NCBI GenBank assembly: GCA_003244145.1
Contig: QHBM01000063.1
Span: forward strand, 22,945-86,944
Direction of reading: 5' to 3'
Source of the DNA: Chthoniobacterales bacterium
Lineage (GTDB): Bacteria > Verrucomicrobiota > Verrucomicrobiia > Chthoniobacterales > UBA10450
Length of the DNA stretch: 64,000 nt
In this document: piece by piece, positions 16,773 to 32,756 of the stretch
Layout: each line of letters starts with the position of its first letter
Position numbering within the stretch: position 1 is the stretch's first letter
Notes under the pieces: generated by a model
Seen by the model: the letters and a program-made list of their open reading frames with translations, nothing else
Databases searched by the model: none
What the model was told of the DNA's origin: nothing
Translations under genes and position numbers: made by a program

Positions 16773-19598
16773 TTAGGTGGGAGGGCGAAATCCGAATTGC
16801 GCCTGCAACTCTCCCCAGAGCCAATCGACAAACCAATCTTTCTGAATTGATCCGGCTCGAGCGCGGGCCAGGGCTTCCGCCTTCTCGACGCTCCCATTCA
16901 AACAGTAGAGATAGGTGAGCAGGAAGAAGTCGTTGATGTTGGTGAAGCCGCGATCGTTTTCGGCTTCGAGCAGTTGAATGGCGGTCGCGAGGTCCCGGCG
17001 GGCCAGCGCGCCCGCGACCAGATCGTGTGTTGCCTCGGCGGGCAAAGCCTGGGCGTCAGCGGCCAATCGCTCCGCGAGCGCGAGGCGAAACTCGTCGCTG
17101 TTCTGGACCGCGAGAACCGGCGTGCGCAGCCGCGAATTGCGCAGGTAGAGATCAAGCTCCGCTAACCAGTTGCTTCCGCTCATTTCCGAGCGATATCGTG
17201 TTTCGCGAAAGAGAAAGAGCTGCTCGAGCGATTTCTTCTGTTCGTTAGGACAAATCTGGCGAATGAGCGCGGAAGCAAGAAAGCGTTGCAGGGCGGCCGA
17301 GTGTTCGAGATAACTGGACCCGAACTGGTAAGCAGCTGCGACGTCGGGCTGCGCGTCGCTCAGGCGCTTGGGATAGAAATCATTCAACGGCTCAGCCCCC
17401 TTCGTCATCCGGTCGATTTCCTCGGCATCCATCACGAATGAAGCGGACATCTGCTCAGGCAACTCGAGGCCGATTCGCACCAAATCGGATCCCGAGCTCC
17501 GATCGGTCCAGAGTTTGCGAACGAGCTCCTCGTTCGTGGGAGAAAGCGGGGGTTTGATTCCAATCATGATCCATTCCAAGTCGGAGGCCGCCCAGAGGGA
17601 CGCGTTCGGAAAGACGTTATGGAACGCGCGAAGGATTGCTTTGGTCTCGTCGCCGGTTAGCTGGTAAATCGGCAACCAGAAGCTGGCGATTCCGCCATCC
17701 TTCAACCGGCCGTTCAGGAGCGAGAAGAATTGTTCCGTGTAGAGGTTGACCGTTCCTGCTGTCTTCAATGGTGGCGGTTCCGCGGTGATGATGTCGTAGC
17801 GATCCGGACAGGCTTGGAGAAAAAATCGGCCATCCTGGACAAAGGTCGCGACGCGCGGATCTCGCAATGGATTTGAGTAACCGGGCCCGGAATACAAGTC
17901 GGCGAGATCGAAGACCTCCTTTGAGATATCGACTATGTCGAGATGCTTCAGCCGCGCATCGTGCGTAAAGGCATCGGCGGTCACGCCCACGCCGTAGCCC
18001 ACTAACAGCGCATTCTCACTGTCGGGGCGAAGTGCCAGCGGCAGGTAGGCAAACAAACGCATATAACGCTGGCCGCGTGGCAGCGTTCCCGACATCGAAT
18101 AGGAGTTTGTGACGAGCCGATAGTAGTAAGGTTCCCCGAAGAGATCGCGGCGCAGGAGTTGAAAAGTGTCCGCTGTGCCTTCAATCTTTTTGAGGAGGAC
18201 GGAACCGTCCTCTTCGTAGGAGCGGCGGGCATTCGCGAAATGAATTTCGTCGCGATGGTAGGGAAAGATCGACAGGATTAGGACAAAGGCCGCGCTAAGC
18301 GCAAGCGTTGCGATTCCAAAGAGCCGTCGCAAGGACCAGCTCTGCCTTTGGCTCGTGAGCAGAGCCAGTCCTGCGTAAAGGCTCGCGCAAAAGATCAAAC
18401 TCGACTGGAATCCTAGCCAGGGCAGAAGCACGAAACCCGTGAGCAGCGGCCCGCAGGCAGCGCCAATGGTGTTGAACAAAATGGTGAGGCCCGTGCTGTT
18501 CATCCAGCCTGGCACCTCGGATTGGACACTGGTCACGATGAGGAGGAGCAGAGTGCCGGAGAGAAGCGCGACGGGGAACATCAGGGCCAATGAGAGTTGC
18601 CCGATCTGCCGGACGATCGCGGGGTCCGACGCAGGATTGTTTGGTGGAAGAAGCGGCACTGGAAAAAACAAATAAGAGAGAAGCGTCGTGCTGGCCGCCA
18701 GGAGCAGAAGCACGGGCAAGAGTCGCCGTCGCGTCTCGACGCGATTTGGAATTATGCTCGAGATGATTCCGCCGAGAGCGATTCCGGCTAAGACGACGGC
18801 GAGCATGATGGAAAAGGCGGTGGAGGTTGAGGCGACGTAGAGACGCAGGAAGCGGAACCAAATTACTTCGAGCCCGAGAAGAACGGCGCCGGCTCCCATG
18901 CTTACGGCAAGCAGACGCCATGGCGGTTGTTTACCTAACGAAAGCTTCCATAGAAAGCGTGGTGGAATCTGCCCAGGTGGCAACGGCTCGCCCCCGGTGA
19001 ATATCCATGCCATCGCTGCTGCGACGCAGCTTAACGCAGCGGCCGTCAACGCAGTCCCCACGAGTCCGCAGGTCCGGACCAGATAAGCTTCGCCGAGCAG
19101 CGCGCCGACCATTGCCCCCAGCGTGTTGACTCCATAAAGAAGGCCAAGGCTGCGGCCGAACTCCCGGTGCTTTAGAAGCGGATCCTCCAGCAGGATGGGA
19201 AGGGTTAGCCCCATCGCGGTCGTCGGAACTAACAGAATCAAGAACGAGACCGCGACGCGGATGGCGTTGAGGAATTGCTGGTGATTCCAGAAAGCCTGGA
19301 AGACAGGTCGCATCCATTCTCCGAGCAGCGGAAGCCCAAACACCAGAGTGCAGCCAAAGATCGCGACCACTACTTCCAATCCTGCGTAGAGACGCAGCGG
19401 CCGGAGCCGGCCGAGCGTGGTCGAGGCGGCGATGGCGCTTCCCAGAGCGAGGCCCGCCATAAAGCTCGAAAGAATCAGAGCCGCGGACCAAACCGAATTA
19501 CCGAAAGCCAAACCGCTCAGCCGGAGCCACAGGGTTTGAAAGAGAAGCGCGCTACTTCCGGAAAGAAAGAGAATGCCCGAAACGATTGCAATACGCAC
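16773..19598 (-). CDS. Fused membrane transporter-like / spermidine-synthase-like protein
   Basis: 941 residues. The N-terminal half (about 1-450) holds a dozen or so hydrophobic helices like the membrane part of fused MFS/spermidine synthases. The middle (about 500-730) is a SpeE-like Rossmann fold: ALLVGYGVGVTADAF binds the aminopropyl donor or SAM, HLDIVDISKEVFDLA carries the acidic ribose contact, and DIITAEPPP is the post-strand-4 motif. The last ~200 residues are helical and TPR-like. Membrane-bound spermidine-synthase homologues are common in soil bacteria; true polyamine synthesis is unproven and no SAM decarboxylase lies nearby. It starts at the ATG at 19598 and is followed 48 nt later by ddl. 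Confidence 0.85.
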   Translation of the reverse strand: MRIAIVSGILFLSGSSALLFQTLWLRLSGLAFGNSVWSAALILSSFMAGLALGSAIAASTTLGRLRPLRLYAGLEVVVAIFGCTLVFGLPLLGEWMRPVFQAFWNHQQFLNAIRVAVSFLILLVPTTAMGLTLPILLEDPLLKHREFGRSLGLLYGVNTLGAMVGALLGEAYLVRTCGLVGTALTAAALSCVAAAMAWIFTGGEPLPPGQIPPRFLWKLSLGKQPPWRLLAVSMGAGAVLLGLEVIWFRFLRLYVASTSTAFSIMLAVVLAGIALGGIISSIIPNRVETRRRLLPVLLLLAASTTLLSYLFFPVPLLPPNNPASDPAIVRQIGQLSLALMFPVALLSGTLLLLIVTSVQSEVPGWMNSTGLTILFNTIGAACGPLLTGFVLLPWLGFQSSLIFCASLYAGLALLTSQRQSWSLRRLFGIATLALSAAFVLILSIFPYHRDEIHFANARRSYEEDGSVLLKKIEGTADTFQLLRRDLFGEPYYYRLVTNSYSMSGTLPRGQRYMRLFAYLPLALRPDSENALLVGYGVGVTADAFTHDARLKHLDIVDISKEVFDLADLYSGPGYSNPLRDPRVATFVQDGRFFLQACPDRYDIITAEPPPLKTAGTVNLYTEQFFSLLNGRLKDGGIASFWLPIYQLTGDETKAILRAFHNVFPNASLWAASDLEWIMIGIKPPLSPTNEELVRKLWTDRSSGSDLVRIGLELPEQMSASFVMDAEEIDRMTKGAEPLNDFYPKRLSDAQPDVAAAYQFGSSYLEHSAALQRFLASALIRQICPNEQKKSLEQLFLFRETRYRSEMSGSNWLAELDLYLRNSRLRTPVLAVQNSDEFRLALAERLAADAQALPAEATHDLVAGALARRDLATAIQLLEAENDRGFTNINDFFLLTYLYCLNGSVEKAEALARARAGSIQKDWFVDWLWGELQAQFGFRPPT

Positions 19599-23125: not shown

Positions 23126-25042
23126 TTAACCAAAGATCACCAAACGAATCGAGTCTGGTAATTGTTGCGCGACATTAGTCACGACGCTGCCACCGAGGAG
23201 CTTGGCCAGAGTGTTGCGCTGCGATGCGCCGATGATCAGGTAATCGACACCCATCGTGGCGGAGAGATCGAGAATGGTGGAGGCGGCGTCCTCACTCACC
23301 GCGTAAACCGGGAGCACACAGATTCCGCGCTCGGCCCCGATCTTCATCATGAGGGACATGATCGCGTTGGCTTCGGGATCGTCCTGCCATTTGGCGCGCC
23401 CGAGTTGGCCGCCGCCGCCATAGAAGACGGCGATCTCCTTCACATACAGCACGCAAAGCGTGGCCTTGCGCAGTTGCGCTTCGTCGAGTGCGAAGCTGAG
23501 CACGGAAGTTATCCCGCGCGCAGCGACCATGATTTTCTGACCTTCCTGGAGGCGCGGCTGCATCGTTGCCACCAGATCGGGCGAGACCATCGCCGCGACC
23601 TGATGCGTTACGGTCATTGTCGTCAGTCCCTGTCGTTTTTGGGTGTAGGCGCGCAAGGCCAGGCCTACCCCGAGCACACAAATGACGAAGAAGAGCGCGT
23701 CCGGTTTCGTGTGGGCGAGGCTCAACTCGACACAGAATAGAATGACGAACGTCACGCCAAAAAGACCGCGGTCGTACCAGGTGAAACCGATCTCGCGATT
23801 CATCGCGCACGATCCAAGATTCACGGCAATCGCTCCGACGACACCGATGGCGTAGAGACCCGCCAGCGATTCGAAATTGGTGGCTGTGAGTAAAACAATG
23901 GAGGGCAAGCCGACGGCAATGAGAAGCGGATAAAGCGGCACGCCATGACGGTTCAATTTCTTAAACTGCCGCGGCATTTCGCGATCGCGCGCTGTCATGT
24001 AGAGCAGCCCGACCATGGCGACGATCGCCGTGTTCGCGGCGCTCAACAGGAGCAGAAGAAAAACGATCCCGACGACCCAACCGAACGCCTGTCCGAACGC
24101 CGGACCGAATGACGCGCTGCCAAATTGTTCGCCAATGAACCGCAGCATGTCCTCTTTTCGCGAGACCAGCACCGTGGTGATTTCGTCGCGACTCATCGGT
24201 CCCATGGTTTTCCCGATCACGTTCGGCAGCGAAAGCATGGCCCAGCCGAGCAACGCCGTACCGAAAACCACTTCGAGCGCGACCGGTGTAATCGCTTTGA
24301 GCGATTCGCGGCGGACACTTGGCTTGTCGGGAGTCGAGCCCGGATCGAGCTTCATCACGCCAGTGAGATTTGCAATCGCTTCCACGCCCGAGAGCGCGAG
24401 GATCACACCGACGAATTGAACCCAGAGCGCGCCCAGGCTCTCGTGCCGCGGCTCCAGAAATTTCGTGGTCAGATGTGGAAGAGCGAGGGCGATCAATGCG
24501 AGGACCACGATCACAGTTGGCAGAGCCAGTCCGACCGCGAGACTGCCGGAATGCTTCGGACCGAACCAGTTCAACGCACCGAGGAAGACCAGCACCAGGA
24601 TCGTGGTCAGCGCGATGTGATCCTTAAGAAATTTTAGCCAAACGATCTGTTCGGCGCCGGCCATGATATAGGTCAGTCCCGACCAGCCGCTGAGCGCGGC
24701 GGTGACGGTCAGGTCCGCCACCAGGAGGAGAGCGCCGACCACCGCAAGCAGGCGGCCTTGTGAGCGCGCGGCGGAATAGACGCCGCCCCCTTCCGGGAAA
24801 TACCGGCAGATGACCGCGTAGTTGATCCCGACCAGACCGGTCAAGGCGCAGACGGCCAGGATAATCGGCAGCGATGCAAATCCGGCCGCGACGAAGGCGA
24901 GACCGATGACGTAGGCCTTGCTCGTGCCCCAATCGCCATAGAGCAACGCCGCGGCGCGCTTCCAGTCCACGTTGCGTGGCCGATGGACCGCCCCTGTCTC
25001 CGTGAGAATTAGATCAGCCATCGCCCGTGGCGGACTGTCCAT
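23126..25042 (-). CDS. APC-superfamily permease with C-terminal USP-like domain (paralogue 1)
   Basis: About 638 residues from the ATG at 25042; another ATG at 25021 aligns best with the paralogue and could be the start. About twelve membrane helices fill residues 20-480, beginning with the signature AALLYGDWGTSKAYVIGLAF. A cytoplasmic tail (about 490-638) resembles the universal-stress-protein fold, including DYLIIGASQRNTLAKLLGGSV, close to the G-2x-G-9x-G nucleotide loop. Members move amino acids, polyamines or K+. It is divergent from a close paralogue at 25346, and the riboswitch between them faces only that paralogue. The methyltransferase gene follows immediately. Confidence 0.87.
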   Translation of the reverse strand: MDSPPRAMADLILTETGAVHRPRNVDWKRAAALLYGDWGTSKAYVIGLAFVAAGFASLPIILAVCALTGLVGINYAVICRYFPEGGGVYSAARSQGRLLAVVGALLLVADLTVTAALSGWSGLTYIMAGAEQIVWLKFLKDHIALTTILVLVFLGALNWFGPKHSGSLAVGLALPTVIVVLALIALALPHLTTKFLEPRHESLGALWVQFVGVILALSGVEAIANLTGVMKLDPGSTPDKPSVRRESLKAITPVALEVVFGTALLGWAMLSLPNVIGKTMGPMSRDEITTVLVSRKEDMLRFIGEQFGSASFGPAFGQAFGWVVGIVFLLLLLSAANTAIVAMVGLLYMTARDREMPRQFKKLNRHGVPLYPLLIAVGLPSIVLLTATNFESLAGLYAIGVVGAIAVNLGSCAMNREIGFTWYDRGLFGVTFVILFCVELSLAHTKPDALFFVICVLGVGLALRAYTQKRQGLTTMTVTHQVAAMVSPDLVATMQPRLQEGQKIMVAARGITSVLSFALDEAQLRKATLCVLYVKEIAVFYGGGGQLGRAKWQDDPEANAIMSLMMKIGAERGICVLPVYAVSEDAASTILDLSATMGVDYLIIGASQRNTLAKLLGGSVVTNVAQQLPDSIRLVIFG

Positions 25043-25118
25043 CGTGGGCTGAGGGAGGGGCAAGCTCTTTCTTGACGCCGCTCTTTCCTAGTCAGAAGCT
25101 TTCGCCAGTTCTTTGTTC

Positions 25119-25264
25119 TGCTTAATGGCGCGCCCGGTGCGCGCCAGCGGGGGACCCAACTTCTGTCCGCCTTTGCGGGTAGATCGGGGCGCACGATGCC
25201 GCGGCATCGGGAGCATTTAATGGCTCTAGCCCGACAGCTAACCTCGTCAGCTTCATTAAAGTGC
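25119..25264 (+). promoter_or_regulatory. c-di-AMP riboswitch (ydaO/yuaA type)
   Basis: The stretch carries the conserved words of this class in order: GCTTAATG (25120-25127) pairing with CATTAAAG at the 3' end (P1), a GGCGCGC/GCGCGCC stem, GCGGGGGACCCAAC (25147-25160), GCGGGTAGATCGG, a GGAGC/GGCTC helix and CCCGACAGCTAACCTCGTC (25230-25248). That last block is nearly invariant in ydaO RNAs. The RNA lies just upstream of the plus-strand permease. In known cases c-di-AMP binding turns off expression of K+, osmolyte or amino-acid transporters and cell-wall enzymes. A CCCC/GGGG hairpin at about 25281-25302 could be the expression platform. Recognition is from memory of the consensus, not a covariance search. 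Confidence 0.85.
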
Positions 25265-25345
25265 AAGGTTCAGGTCCAATCCCCGCTCTTGCTGAAGTGG
25301 GGCCACGTCGCCGCACGACGCCGCCTCGGTTCCGAGTCGAAGCAA

Positions 25346-27175
25346 TTGATAGCAACTAACGTTAAGCGACCGCGCAATGTGAACGTGCCCCGCGCGGCTG
25401 CGATCTTGTACGGGGACTGGGGCACGAGCAAAGCGTACGTCATCGGCCTCGCCTTCGCGGTCGGGGGTTACGCGTCGTTCTGGCTGATCGGCGCGATGTG
25501 CATCCTGACTGCGCTGGTCGGGATCAACTACATCATCATCTGCCGGCTCTATCCGGATGGCGGCGGCGTTTACGCGAGTGTTCGGCATCGCAGCGAAGTC
25601 ATTTCCATCGTCGGCGCGTTTCTCCTCATCGCCGATTATTTGGTCACCGCGGCGATCAGCGCGCTCTCCGCCTTTCAATATCTCGGAGTGCCGCATCCGG
25701 AAAAATTCGCGGCCGCGGCCATTCTTATCATTGGCCTGTTGAATTTGCTCGGGCCGAAGCACACAGGCGGTCTGGCGTTTTTGATTTCGATTCCGACCGC
25801 GATCGTCGTCGTCGTTCTCGGATTGTTCAGTCTGCCGCACATGGGGGACGCCATCGGACACCTCCAACCATTGCATGGCGGCTTTTGGTCGAACTGGGGC
25901 GGCTTCGTCGGAATCGTGCTTGCGCTTTCCGGCGTGGAAGCGATCGCGAACGCCACCGGCGTGATGCGTCTCGATCCCGGCAGCACTGAAGCCCAGCCAT
26001 CCGTGCGCAAGACTTCCACGCCTGCGCTGGTCTGGGTCATGGTGGAAGTTTGCATTTTCACCGCGCTGCTCGGACTCGCGATGCACGCGCTCGGCGGGTT
26101 ACAGACCGCGAACGGCGAAGTCAACGCGCCCGGAGCGGAAGGCGTGCGCGACTACATGCTGCGTTACATGGGCGAGACATTCGTGGGCGGTGCGCTCGGT
26201 CCGGCGATTGGCCACGCCTTCGGTTTCGCCGTCAGCATCACTTTTGGTTTGCTTCTGCTCTCCGCCGTCAACACCGCGATCGTCGATCTGATCACGATCC
26301 AATTCCTCATGGCGCGCGATCGCGAGCTGCCGTCGATTTTCCAACGTCTCAACAAATGGGGCGTGCCGAGCATCGGCATGCTTCTCGCCACCATCGTTCC
26401 GATGCTCCTCGTCATTCTCGTGAAGGACATGGTCGGACTCGCCGATCTCTATGCGGTCGGCGTCGTCGGCGCCATTGCCACCAATCTCGGCGCGACCGCG
26501 ACCGATTGGAAGTTGCCGATCAAAACCTGGGAACGGACCCTGATGTTCGGAACGTTCATCGTCATGGCCGCGATTGAAATGTCGCTCCTGATCGATAAAC
26601 CGAACGCGCGCTATTTCGCTGTCACTATTCTCGCCGTCGGATTAATCCTGCGCGGCCTCGTGCAGGAACGCCGGGCCAAGAAAGAAGCAAAACCGCCCGA
26701 GAAAATTCCGGTGGTGGTCGTCCCTTCGCCGGCCGCGCCCGCGGTAACGTCGGTCTCCGACCGGCGGTCCGATTCCGAATCGCTTCTCTGCGCGATCCGC
26801 GGCACCGGCCGCACGCTCGACTTCGCCCTGCGCGAAGCGCGCGAGACTGGGCGCCGGCTCTATTTGCTCTTCGTGCGCGAGCAACCGTTCATGACCGAGC
26901 AGGACGCCAAACGCAAATGGCAGGACGACGAAGAAGCGAGCGCCATCTTTGCCGAAGCGAAACAAAAGGCCGGCGATCATCAACCGCTCTTCGCCTACGC
27001 CGTTAGTCCTTCCGCCGCCGAAACGATTGTCGATATCGCCGCCACCCTCGGGGCCTCGCGCCTGATTCTCGGCGCGCCCAAACGAAATGCCCTTCTCAAT
27101 TTGCTTCGCGGCAACGTCATTCGGGAGGTGTCCAGCTTACTTCCTGAAGAAATCGACCTGCTCGTTTACGCCTGA
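25346..27175 (+). CDS. APC-superfamily permease with USP-like tail (paralogue 2), under c-di-AMP riboswitch
   Basis: About 609 residues. Longer in-frame starts (25196, 25220) fall inside the riboswitch and are rejected. The TTG at 25346 is chosen because it aligns with the paralogue just before VKRPRNV; a GTG further on is possible. The membrane part begins with AAILYGDWGTSKAYVIGLAF, identical in most positions to paralogue 1. The tail (about 460-609) has FVREQPFMTE and ASRLILGAPKRNALLNLLRG, USP-like. Riboswitch control suggests the cargo is K+, a compatible solute or an amino acid that affects turgor; the class of cargo is inference. Confidence 0.85.
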   Translation: MIATNVKRPRNVNVPRAAAILYGDWGTSKAYVIGLAFAVGGYASFWLIGAMCILTALVGINYIIICRLYPDGGGVYASVRHRSEVISIVGAFLLIADYLVTAAISALSAFQYLGVPHPEKFAAAAILIIGLLNLLGPKHTGGLAFLISIPTAIVVVVLGLFSLPHMGDAIGHLQPLHGGFWSNWGGFVGIVLALSGVEAIANATGVMRLDPGSTEAQPSVRKTSTPALVWVMVEVCIFTALLGLAMHALGGLQTANGEVNAPGAEGVRDYMLRYMGETFVGGALGPAIGHAFGFAVSITFGLLLLSAVNTAIVDLITIQFLMARDRELPSIFQRLNKWGVPSIGMLLATIVPMLLVILVKDMVGLADLYAVGVVGAIATNLGATATDWKLPIKTWERTLMFGTFIVMAAIEMSLLIDKPNARYFAVTILAVGLILRGLVQERRAKKEAKPPEKIPVVVVPSPAAPAVTSVSDRRSDSESLLCAIRGTGRTLDFALREARETGRRLYLLFVREQPFMTEQDAKRKWQDDEEASAIFAEAKQKAGDHQPLFAYAVSPSAAETIVDIAATLGASRLILGAPKRNALLNLLRGNVIREVSSLLPEEIDLLVYA

Positions 27176-30155: not shown

Positions 30156-31433
30156 ATGTTACATCTCGATACGGGCAATACCGCCTTCATGCTCCTGTGC
30201 GCCAGCCTGGTCATGTTGATGACGCCGGGGCTGGCCTTCTTCTACGGCGGACTCGTCGGAAGAAAGAACGTCCTCGCCATCATGATGCAGAGCTTCGTCT
30301 CGATGGGCTGGACCACGGTCCTATGGTGGGCCTTCGGCTTCTCGCTCTGTTTCTCGGGCGACCAGAAGAGCGGCACCGATTTCTTTGGCATTGTCGGTAA
30401 CCTGAATTGGGCGGCTCTGCGCGGCATTACTCTGACAACGCCGTCACCTAACGACACCATTCCCATGCTCGTCTTCTGCGCTTACCAGATGATGTTCGCC
30501 ATTATCACGCCGGCGCTCATCACGGGAGCATTCGCGAACCGCATCACTTTCAAGGCTTACATGCTCTTTCTCACGGCTTGGCTGATCCTGGTTTACTTTC
30601 CCTTTGTTCACATGGTTTGGGGCGGCGGCATGCTGGCGGAGTGGGGGGTAAAAGATTTTGCCGGCGGAATCGTCGTGCACAACATCGCGGGCGTCGCGGC
30701 GCTCGCGTCTATTCTTTACGTCGGCAAACGCAAGATCGTGGACCGCGGTCCGCATAGCATTCCGCTCGTCGCTCTCGGCACCGGCTTGCTCTGGTTTGGT
30801 TGGTACGGGTTCAACGCCGGATCAGAATTTCGCGTCGATGGGATTACGGCCGTCGCGTTTGTCAATACCGACCTGGCCGCCTCCTTTGCCGCCATCGCCT
30901 GGATGGTGGTGGACTGGCGCGTCTCGAAGAAACCAAAATTCCTCGGGCTGCTCACCGGCGCCGTGGCAGGGCTCGCCACCATCACGCCCGCGGCGGGTTA
31001 CGTCTCGCCCGCGACCGCGGCCATCATCGGGATCACCGCCGGGGTCGTCTGCTATTACGCTTGCGCGCTCAAGAACAAGCTCGGCTGGGACGATGCCCTC
31101 GATGTCTGGGGCGTGCACGGCGTGGGCGGTCTTCTCGGCATCGTGCTTCTCGGCGTCTTCGCCTCGACCGCGTGGAATCCGGCGGCAAACGGCGGCGTCA
31201 ACGGATTGCTCGCCGGCGATACAACTTTTTTTCTGAAGCAACTGGGCGCGGGATTGTTCTCGTCTCTCTGGGCGTTCGTTTTCACTTTCGGGATGCTCTG
31301 GATCATCGATCGCATCACCGTGGTGCGGGTCGAGGATGCGCACGAGGCACTCGGCCTCGATGCCGCGATCCACGGCGAGAGCGCTTACGAGGAAATGGAC
31401 GTCGCGGCTATTCGCCCCGGTCAACCCCTCTGA
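30156..31433 (+). CDS. amt: Ammonium transporter (Amt family)
   Basis: 425 residues with eleven predicted helices. CGGAGG lies about 8 nt before the ATG. Typical segments are MLMTPGLAFFYGGLVGRKN near the N-terminus, DFAGGIVVHNIAGVAAL (about 165-181, with the first pore His region), WFGWYGFNAGSE and DDALDVWGVHGVGGLLGIV (about 310-328, second pore His). It imports ammonium/ammonia across the inner membrane. No glnK (PII) gene follows, as it often does; instead an outer-membrane porin-like gene starts 39 nt later in the same direction. Confidence 0.95.
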   Translation: MLHLDTGNTAFMLLCASLVMLMTPGLAFFYGGLVGRKNVLAIMMQSFVSMGWTTVLWWAFGFSLCFSGDQKSGTDFFGIVGNLNWAALRGITLTTPSPNDTIPMLVFCAYQMMFAIITPALITGAFANRITFKAYMLFLTAWLILVYFPFVHMVWGGGMLAEWGVKDFAGGIVVHNIAGVAALASILYVGKRKIVDRGPHSIPLVALGTGLLWFGWYGFNAGSEFRVDGITAVAFVNTDLAASFAAIAWMVVDWRVSKKPKFLGLLTGAVAGLATITPAAGYVSPATAAIIGITAGVVCYYACALKNKLGWDDALDVWGVHGVGGLLGIVLLGVFASTAWNPAANGGVNGLLAGDTTFFLKQLGAGLFSSLWAFVFTFGMLWIIDRITVVRVEDAHEALGLDAAIHGESAYEEMDVAAIRPGQPL

Positions 31434-31472
31434 TTGTGGCACCAACGCGCGCTTGATCAGTTGACCGAAAGA

Positions 31473-32756
31473 ATGGTTCATCCGTGGCTCAAAAAGGACT
31501 TCGCCCGCTTGCTCTGCGTAAGATTCACGCGGTTCGTTGCGGCCCTTTTGATTTCGGTCGCGGCAAGCGAAGTAGTCGGGCAAACCCTCACTCCGTCGGA
31601 GGAAGAAGTTCAGGATAAGGTCATCCAACAAGAAGAGGCGAAGTCGCGTTTGGCCATTTCCAGCTGGGTCCAGAGTGGTATCACGGCTAATCCGGACAGC
31701 CCGCGAGATAATCAAAACTTCGGCCGTTTTTTCGACGACCGCGCGAACGAGCCGCTGCTGAATCAGGTCGTGCTCAACTTTGAGCGGGCCCTCGTGCCCA
31801 AGCCCGGCGAGTTCGATTGGGGTTTCAAGCTCCAGGTCATGTATGGCAGCGACGCGCGCTTCATTCATTCGCTAGGTTTGCTTGACCACGCCGGCTCTTC
31901 TTCGCTCCTGCAACCCGACATCGTCGAAGCGTATCTCAATTTGCACTTCCCCATTCTCAGCGAGGGCGGCGTTGATGTGAAGCTGGGTAAGTTCGTTACC
32001 ATGGAAGGAGCGGAAACCATCGACCCGCGCACCAACTTCTTTTACTCGCACACCTATATCTTTAATTTCGGGATTCCGCTTAACCACACCGGCGCGCTCG
32101 CCACCTGGCACGCGACTTCGCACGTCAATCTGGTGGCCGGCCTAACGAGAGGTGTGAACACCAGCATTAAGGACAACAACGATTCGCTCGCGTTTCACGG
32201 CGGGATCGGCCTGGACTTGAACGAAAGCAAGCTTGTCATTTCCGCGGCCACCCACATCGGTCCCGAGACGGCGCACGACGATCACAATCCGCGCTACCTC
32301 AGCACCATCACCACCACCTGGAAGATCACCGACAAACTTACCTCCATCACTGATCTGAATTATGCGCGCGACGCCGGCGCCGATGCGGATGCCTATGGCG
32401 TGGCCCAGTATTTTACCTACACCGTTAATAGCTGGCTCGCAGTCGGCGTCCGCGGCGAGGTCTTTCGGGATGATAAAGGGTTTTACGTCGTCTCGTTCGC
32501 CAACTACCACGACCCGATGCGGCTCCTCGCGGGAGAACCGAGCATCGACCCGCGCACCGTTGGCGGCGGCAATACCACCTATGGCGCGATTACCCTCGGC
32601 CTGAATATCAAGCCGCCGGTGCCCAAACCCGCAGCCAGCGTGACCATCCGCCCCGAGCTGCGTTTCGATCGCGCCCTAAATGGATCGCATCCCTTTAACG
32701 ACTCCAGCGATCGCAATCAATTCACCGGCGCTCTCGACGTGATCGTCGTTTTCTAG
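31473..32756 (+). CDS. Outer-membrane beta-barrel porin (BBP2-like), downstream of amt
   Basis: 427 residues from the ATG at 31473 (a TTG at 31434 is less likely). A signal peptide covers about 12-38 (FVAALLISVAASEVVGQ). The remainder alternates polar and hydrophobic strands as in a barrel, with LNFERALVPKPGEFDWGFKLQVMYG, KLGKFVTMEGAE and the ending LDVIVVF with C-terminal Phe. The pattern matches the BBP2/'outer membrane beta-barrel' family of putative porins seen beside amt in several phyla. Position suggests it lets ammonium or small nitrogen compounds cross the outer membrane. Confidence 0.82.
   Translation: MVHPWLKKDFARLLCVRFTRFVAALLISVAASEVVGQTLTPSEEEVQDKVIQQEEAKSRLAISSWVQSGITANPDSPRDNQNFGRFFDDRANEPLLNQVVLNFERALVPKPGEFDWGFKLQVMYGSDARFIHSLGLLDHAGSSSLLQPDIVEAYLNLHFPILSEGGVDVKLGKFVTMEGAETIDPRTNFFYSHTYIFNFGIPLNHTGALATWHATSHVNLVAGLTRGVNTSIKDNNDSLAFHGGIGLDLNESKLVISAATHIGPETAHDDHNPRYLSTITTTWKITDKLTSITDLNYARDAGADADAYGVAQYFTYTVNSWLAVGVRGEVFRDDKGFYVVSFANYHDPMRLLAGEPSIDPRTVGGGNTTYGAITLGLNIKPPVPKPAASVTIRPELRFDRALNGSHPFNDSSDRNQFTGALDVIVVF

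Follow-up and report, generated by a model that had tools for sequence, protein, structure and literature searches.

Why would a bacterium keep two closely related permeases back to back and place a riboswitch before only one of them? This is the question raised by a divergent gene pair in the window (the whole 64,000-nucleotide stretch of Chthoniobacterales DNA that was analysed), in which one gene, here called P, is read on the plus strand behind a c-di-AMP aptamer and its paralogue, M, is read on the minus strand. What do the two proteins carry? Does the switch reach M? How could the leader RNA act on P? The answer that we consider probable from sequence comparison is that the two paralogues import K+ and form the cell's K+ uptake locus, with the c-di-AMP switch placed on P and M escaping it.

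The two proteins are 44% identical, both match AA_permease_2 and Usp in Pfam, and their first membrane helix is near-identical (RAAA[IL]LYGDWGTSKAYVIGLAF). An earlier reading of the letters (the sequence-only reading) had described paralogous divergent permeases with a similar membrane start and USP-like tails, and all of this holds. An assembly artefact can be ruled out because the pair recurs, with a divergent M less than 0.7 kb from the riboswitch, in 13 genomes belonging to five genera. The start of P is placed at TTG 25346 since six relatives have a stop codon immediately 5' of that TTG; comparison with relatives rules out ATG 25196, which lies inside the aptamer. For M, comparison with about 30 relatives gives ATG 25021 and excludes TTG 25063, a choice that also follows from this TTG being the likely -35 box of M's promoter. 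When the whole window was compared with all 4227 Rfam families, the sole riboswitch was RF00379 at 25109-25268 (+), with a score of 54.1 bits, above the cutoff of 38, and E 8.9e-10; it is also the single RF00379 match in the 3.6-Mb assembly. Both-side changes are seen in 14 of 31 aptamer pairs among 22 relatives. The riboswitch had been drawn at 25064-25350 and assigned to the plus-strand permease alone; the location and the assignment were right, and the true match is shorter. By its family, the aptamer would bind c-di-AMP and lower expression.

Table 1. Features of the M-P locus and of related loci; positions are those of the window unless another locus is named
Feature	Position	Strand	Description	Basis
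M	23126..25021	-	paralogue of P (631 aa) with an ATG start and its own promoter; no riboswitch in front	
Putative promoter of M	25035..25063	-	-35 TTGCCC (25058-25063), 17 nt, -10-like GGACAG (25035-25040)	CTTGYC conservation
Putative promoter of P	25072..25100	+	-35 TTGACG (25072-25077), 17 nt, -10-like GAAGCT (25095-25100)	TTGAC conservation
Aptamer of the c-di-AMP riboswitch (ydaO type, RF00379), flanks included	25109..25268	+		cmscan and covariation
Leader hairpin H2	25263..25292	+	between aptamer and start codon	covariation in relatives
Leader hairpin H3	25294..25332	+	ends 13 nt before TTG start, no U-tract	covariation
P	25346..27175	+	609-aa probable KimA/KUP-type K+ importer, USP-like cytosolic tail, TTG start, behind riboswitch	
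K+/H+-site residues in P			D24, Y31, T101, S105, S195, E198, Y369; D97 for KimA D117	
Short KdpD	L163:2258-3385; similar ORFs L158:2185-3327, L164:13723-14850			L163 Pfam-tested

What kind of transporters are these? A phmmer search with M finds KimA (6s3k, E 1.6e-8), and when a profile built from 34 P and M proteins was searched, KimA alone among solved structures matched the membrane part (E 4.4e-12), at an identity to P and M of about 17%. P was modelled with AlphaFold (mean pLDDT 80, with a low-confidence linker between tail and membrane part), and the first fold matches of the model in the PDB are three KimA entries, 8b70, 8b71 and 6s3k, with TM-scores to the query of 0.56-0.60 and E 5.7e-19 for the top match, 8b70. 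The residues of KimA involved in K+ binding, gating and H+ coupling have been assigned (PMC6994465, PMC10284832). Across the 34 proteins (23 P and 11 M) the equivalents of D36, Y43, T121, S125, E233 and Y377 are invariant, and that of T230 is Ser in all of them (S195 of P); T230A is tolerated in KimA (PMC6994465). D24 and Y31 of P were mapped through the KUP motif (a D and, seven residues on, a Y) and the Kup alignment, because the HMMER alignment to KimA begins after D36. The motif LYGDWGTS is invariant in P and M and aligns with VYGDIGTS in TM1 of Kup; against genuine Kup proteins of sister species, hhalign places YGDWGTSKAY on YGDIGTSPLY (E 1.7e-6). PF02705 (K_trans) has no match in P or M at E up to 1. 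Given the KimA-like fold and residues, the YGD motif and the unmatched PF02705, the most fitting description of the family is a branch of the KUP group that is KimA-like and has a USP tail. P and M probably import K+ by symport with H+, in the manner of KimA/KUP.

Could c-di-AMP also act on the proteins themselves? In KimA, c-di-AMP binding to the cytosolic domain is already known as a second layer of control (PMC10284832). The tails of P and M match USP in the 34-sequence profile, the tail model has a USP fold, and the KdpD USP domain bound to c-di-AMP (7ji4) is rank 11 among its structural matches. Searched alone, the tail matched USPs, with KimA absent among the best 50 listed. There is no residue alignment beyond KimA 506, which leaves the pocket residues Pro479, Val506, His579, Gln581 and Ser582 unmapped in the tail. 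From the USP fold and the match to KdpD, nucleotide binding by the tails is plausible, but the ATP-type USP motif G-2x-G-9x-G-(S/T) is incomplete in the aligned tails, which keep its first and third Gly and have K, Q, R, H, E or another residue in place of the second. At the position of KimA Arg337, numbered from the KimA alignment and PMC10284832, the window's M has Arg (MPRQF) and its P has Ser330; Arg is found there in 9 of 11 M proteins (and in most M proteins of a second comparison) versus 3 of 23 P. Arg337 is a loop residue contacting c-di-AMP (PMC10284832). This Arg and the likeness of the tail to 7ji4 would suit a split in which P is controlled at the RNA level and M by c-di-AMP on its tail and TM8-9 loop, making M neither constitutive nor unregulated. 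However, Arg337 is non-essential for KimA inhibition (PMC10284832). The Tyr118 equivalent is kept by P and not by M, and the pocket residues of the KimA cytosolic domain could not be aligned to the tails. An Arg after the Pro, as in MPR, is common in APC loops, which counts against the split as well. We regard the split as doubtful, and its fuller version as rather unlikely: that the pair divides c-di-AMP control, P through its leader RNA including the TTG and M through a KimA-type Arg and USP tail, the two being in some species the sole K+ uptake systems.

Is K+ the cargo, or could amino acids take its place? The sequence-only reading had proposed an osmosis-linked cargo, either K+ or amino acids. 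On the amino-acid reading, P and M would be APC amino-acid or osmolyte permeases with c-di-AMP control serving osmotic balance, as might be expected from the best Pfam match being AA_permease_2, from the many amino-acid transporters ranked after KimA in the fold search with P, and from one riboswitch of the order (L089) that precedes an ordinary AA_permease_2 protein. Against this, all K+-binding and H+-coupling residues of KimA are kept in P and M, both carry the KUP motif YGDxGTS, KimA heads the structural matches, and the pair is embedded among kdp and kup in the genus: kdpABC is located between M and P in G124-G127, and kup in G128 and G130. With the K+/H+ site intact, KimA the nearest structure and K+ genes linked, amino-acid cargo is disfavoured and we consider it unlikely; of the two cargoes proposed, K+ is the one upheld and most likely that of both proteins. 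In sister species, the kdpABC operon beside M ends in a short KdpD with a sensor domain and USP and no kinase (Table 1). An ammonium transporter followed by a BBP2 porin lies at window 30156-32756, and amt adjoins P in sister species too. At 16773-19598 the window also encodes a protein of 941 aa in which a spermidine-synthase domain is combined with numerous hydrophobic stretches.

Which other K+ systems does the genus have? TrkH is absent from all eight species, Kup is present in two of the eight and KdpA in four. No Trk/Ktr, Kup or Kdp was found in the window genome (88% complete) or in its sister G129 (97% complete), so M and P are the sole recognised K+ uptake candidates of these two. A diadenylate cyclase is present in 8/8 species; the window genome has a single one, of CdaA type with a CdaA_N domain. 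Five of the eight species keep P without a riboswitch detectable in a scan whose stricter filters can lose weak matches. These five can thus dispense with the switch, and each of them has Kdp or Kup, in numbers too small for a test.

How are the two transcripts kept apart? A TTGAC -35 box stands upstream of the aptamer at a near-constant distance in most of about 39 loci, and its position puts the start of the P transcript at about 25107. M has a conserved element of its own, CTTGYC / TTGYC(A/C) with a 17-nt spacer, which is present also where M is far from P. Both -10 boxes are poor, that of P being weak enough to be missed by a consensus scan, and the promoters are accordingly given as putative. 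Their -35 boxes are separated by 8 bp in the window, and therefore the aptamer cannot belong to M's transcript. This same spacing would let polymerases compete, and the riboswitch might affect M as well as P, by way of promoter overlap or antisense transcription. This is very improbable, since no part of the aptamer falls within the transcription unit of M, whose promoter element is unchanged where M is far from P. The proposal that the genes are an induced/constitutive set is half borne out: M is outside the switch with its own conserved promoter, and it may stay on at high c-di-AMP.

How, then, might the leader act on P? Two hairpins between aptamer and start codon, H2 and H3, are common to 27 relatives. 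They covary over 17 pairs, with 96% of cells paired and 38 cells with both-side changes, a level that no shuffle reached and that is destroyed when the partners are slid; in the window itself the H2 pairing has a shifted register relative to the relatives. A terminator scan found no intrinsic terminator in 24950-25420, and the window has no U-tract after H3. Folding of the leader is no more stable than that of shuffled sequences (z -0.3). Pairing of the 3' strand of H2 with the start-codon region was tried as a switch and rejected, the pairing energies of its own partners being no better than those of shuffled ones (540 of 2000 shuffles did as well). In the window's family, P directly behind the riboswitch starts with TTG in 21/21 cases, and P elsewhere has ATG at the equivalent place in 9/9; farther out, in other families, a P gene that immediately follows the riboswitch has an ATG start. 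Porin genes in first position in other genomes also start with TTG in nearly all cases. TTG tracks the position behind the leader, and the weak start codon thus belongs to the leader, which points to a tuning of translation. The leader may act through translation, Rho or a weak terminator. Separately, the aptamer 5' strand GCUUAA (25119-25126) is complementary to UUAAGC (25365-25375), which spans codons 7-8 of P. This pairing is part of the minimum-energy fold, and most, not all, P genes of the family that directly follow a riboswitch keep it; since it was spotted post hoc and depends on AAG/AAA usage, it is a lead only. One locus (L013:6050-6130) has a leader that has lost H2 but retains the aptamer, the TTG start and a portion of H3.

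How widespread is this arrangement? Among 213 genomes of the order, 51 carry a total of 55 riboswitches, counted with stricter filters that may lose weak matches. P follows directly in 26 of the 55, and in six more one gene stands between. Three of these intervening genes were tested, and each encodes a BBP2 porin (L030:4586-5998, L022:2317-3726, L041:3648-5099), which suggests that K+ takes a common route across the outer and inner membranes. In Chthoniobacter flavus (L078) and G025, riboswitch, P and M follow one another on one strand; M can therefore also sit inside the switched unit. The same riboswitch precedes canonical Kup in two loci (L095, L099), which also speaks for K+ as the cargo of P and M. 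In a tandem duplication (L032:1466-7612), M is followed by two copies of P, and a separate riboswitch precedes each copy. Four genomes have the riboswitch before a Band_7/SPFH protein (L087:100-1398, L088:1734-3038, L090:1774-3174, L105:1-1377); we know of no such target class for the c-di-AMP riboswitch.

Taken together with known systems, the reading of P and M as switched and unswitched K+ importers can be put as follows. From its own promoter, P would be transcribed with a leader carrying the c-di-AMP aptamer and the two further hairpins. With sufficient K+, c-di-AMP from the CdaA-type cyclase would bind the aptamer and turn P off, and when K+ and c-di-AMP fall P would be made. M, read oppositely from its separate promoter and outside the switch, would supply a base level of K+ uptake, in a role that can be likened to that of KtrCD beside KimA and KtrAB in Bacillus subtilis, where KtrCD is the unswitched partner of the riboswitch-controlled KimA (PMC5573677). 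Like KimA (YdaO) of B. subtilis, P has an APC fold, a cytosolic tail, RF00379 upstream and the K+/H+ residues (PMC5573677, PMC6994465, PMC10284832). Unlike KimA, which has lost the YGD motif of the KUP family (PMC6994465), the distantly related P and M keep it, and P is without Arg337; unlike B. subtilis kimA, P has a leader without an intrinsic terminator and a divergent unswitched paralogue adjoining. With KUP/K_trans the proteins share the TM1 motif [VIL][YF]GDxGTS and the Kup profile match, whereas they lack a PF02705 match and a USP-like tail replaces K_trans_C. The pair resembles riboswitch-controlled KtrAB and constitutive KtrCD in having one importer with and another without a switch (PMC5573677), but P and M are of an unrelated transporter family and form a divergent gene pair. 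The kdpFABC operon of Bacillus thuringiensis is likewise a K+ uptake locus behind RF00379, an OFF switch there with an intrinsic terminator and U-tract (PMC6488665); in the P leader, no terminator was found. An intrinsic terminator is the typical expression platform in Bacillus and does not define the RF00379 aptamer family. What is new here? Riboswitch-controlled KimA and c-di-AMP binding to its cytosolic domain were known already, and c-di-AMP riboswitches before K+ transporters had been predicted in Verrucomicrobia (stated in PMC6488665). No paper on the M-P pair was found in the literature searched, which included few subscription journals. The new elements are the divergent split paralogue pair with its K+ island, the covarying two-hairpin leader without intrinsic terminator and, in the window's family, the invariant TTG only directly behind that leader.

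The c-di-AMP/K+ control scheme of Firmicutes would thus extend to soil Verrucomicrobiota, which are abundant and for the most part uncultured, and proteins that carry the label 'amino acid permease' would form a family of probable K+ importers. In species with seemingly no other K+ uptake, the pair would allow one to test directly what a cell gains by placing one importer in the switch and one out of it, and Chthoniobacter flavus, a cultured relative with the riboswitch-P-M tandem, provides a testable system.
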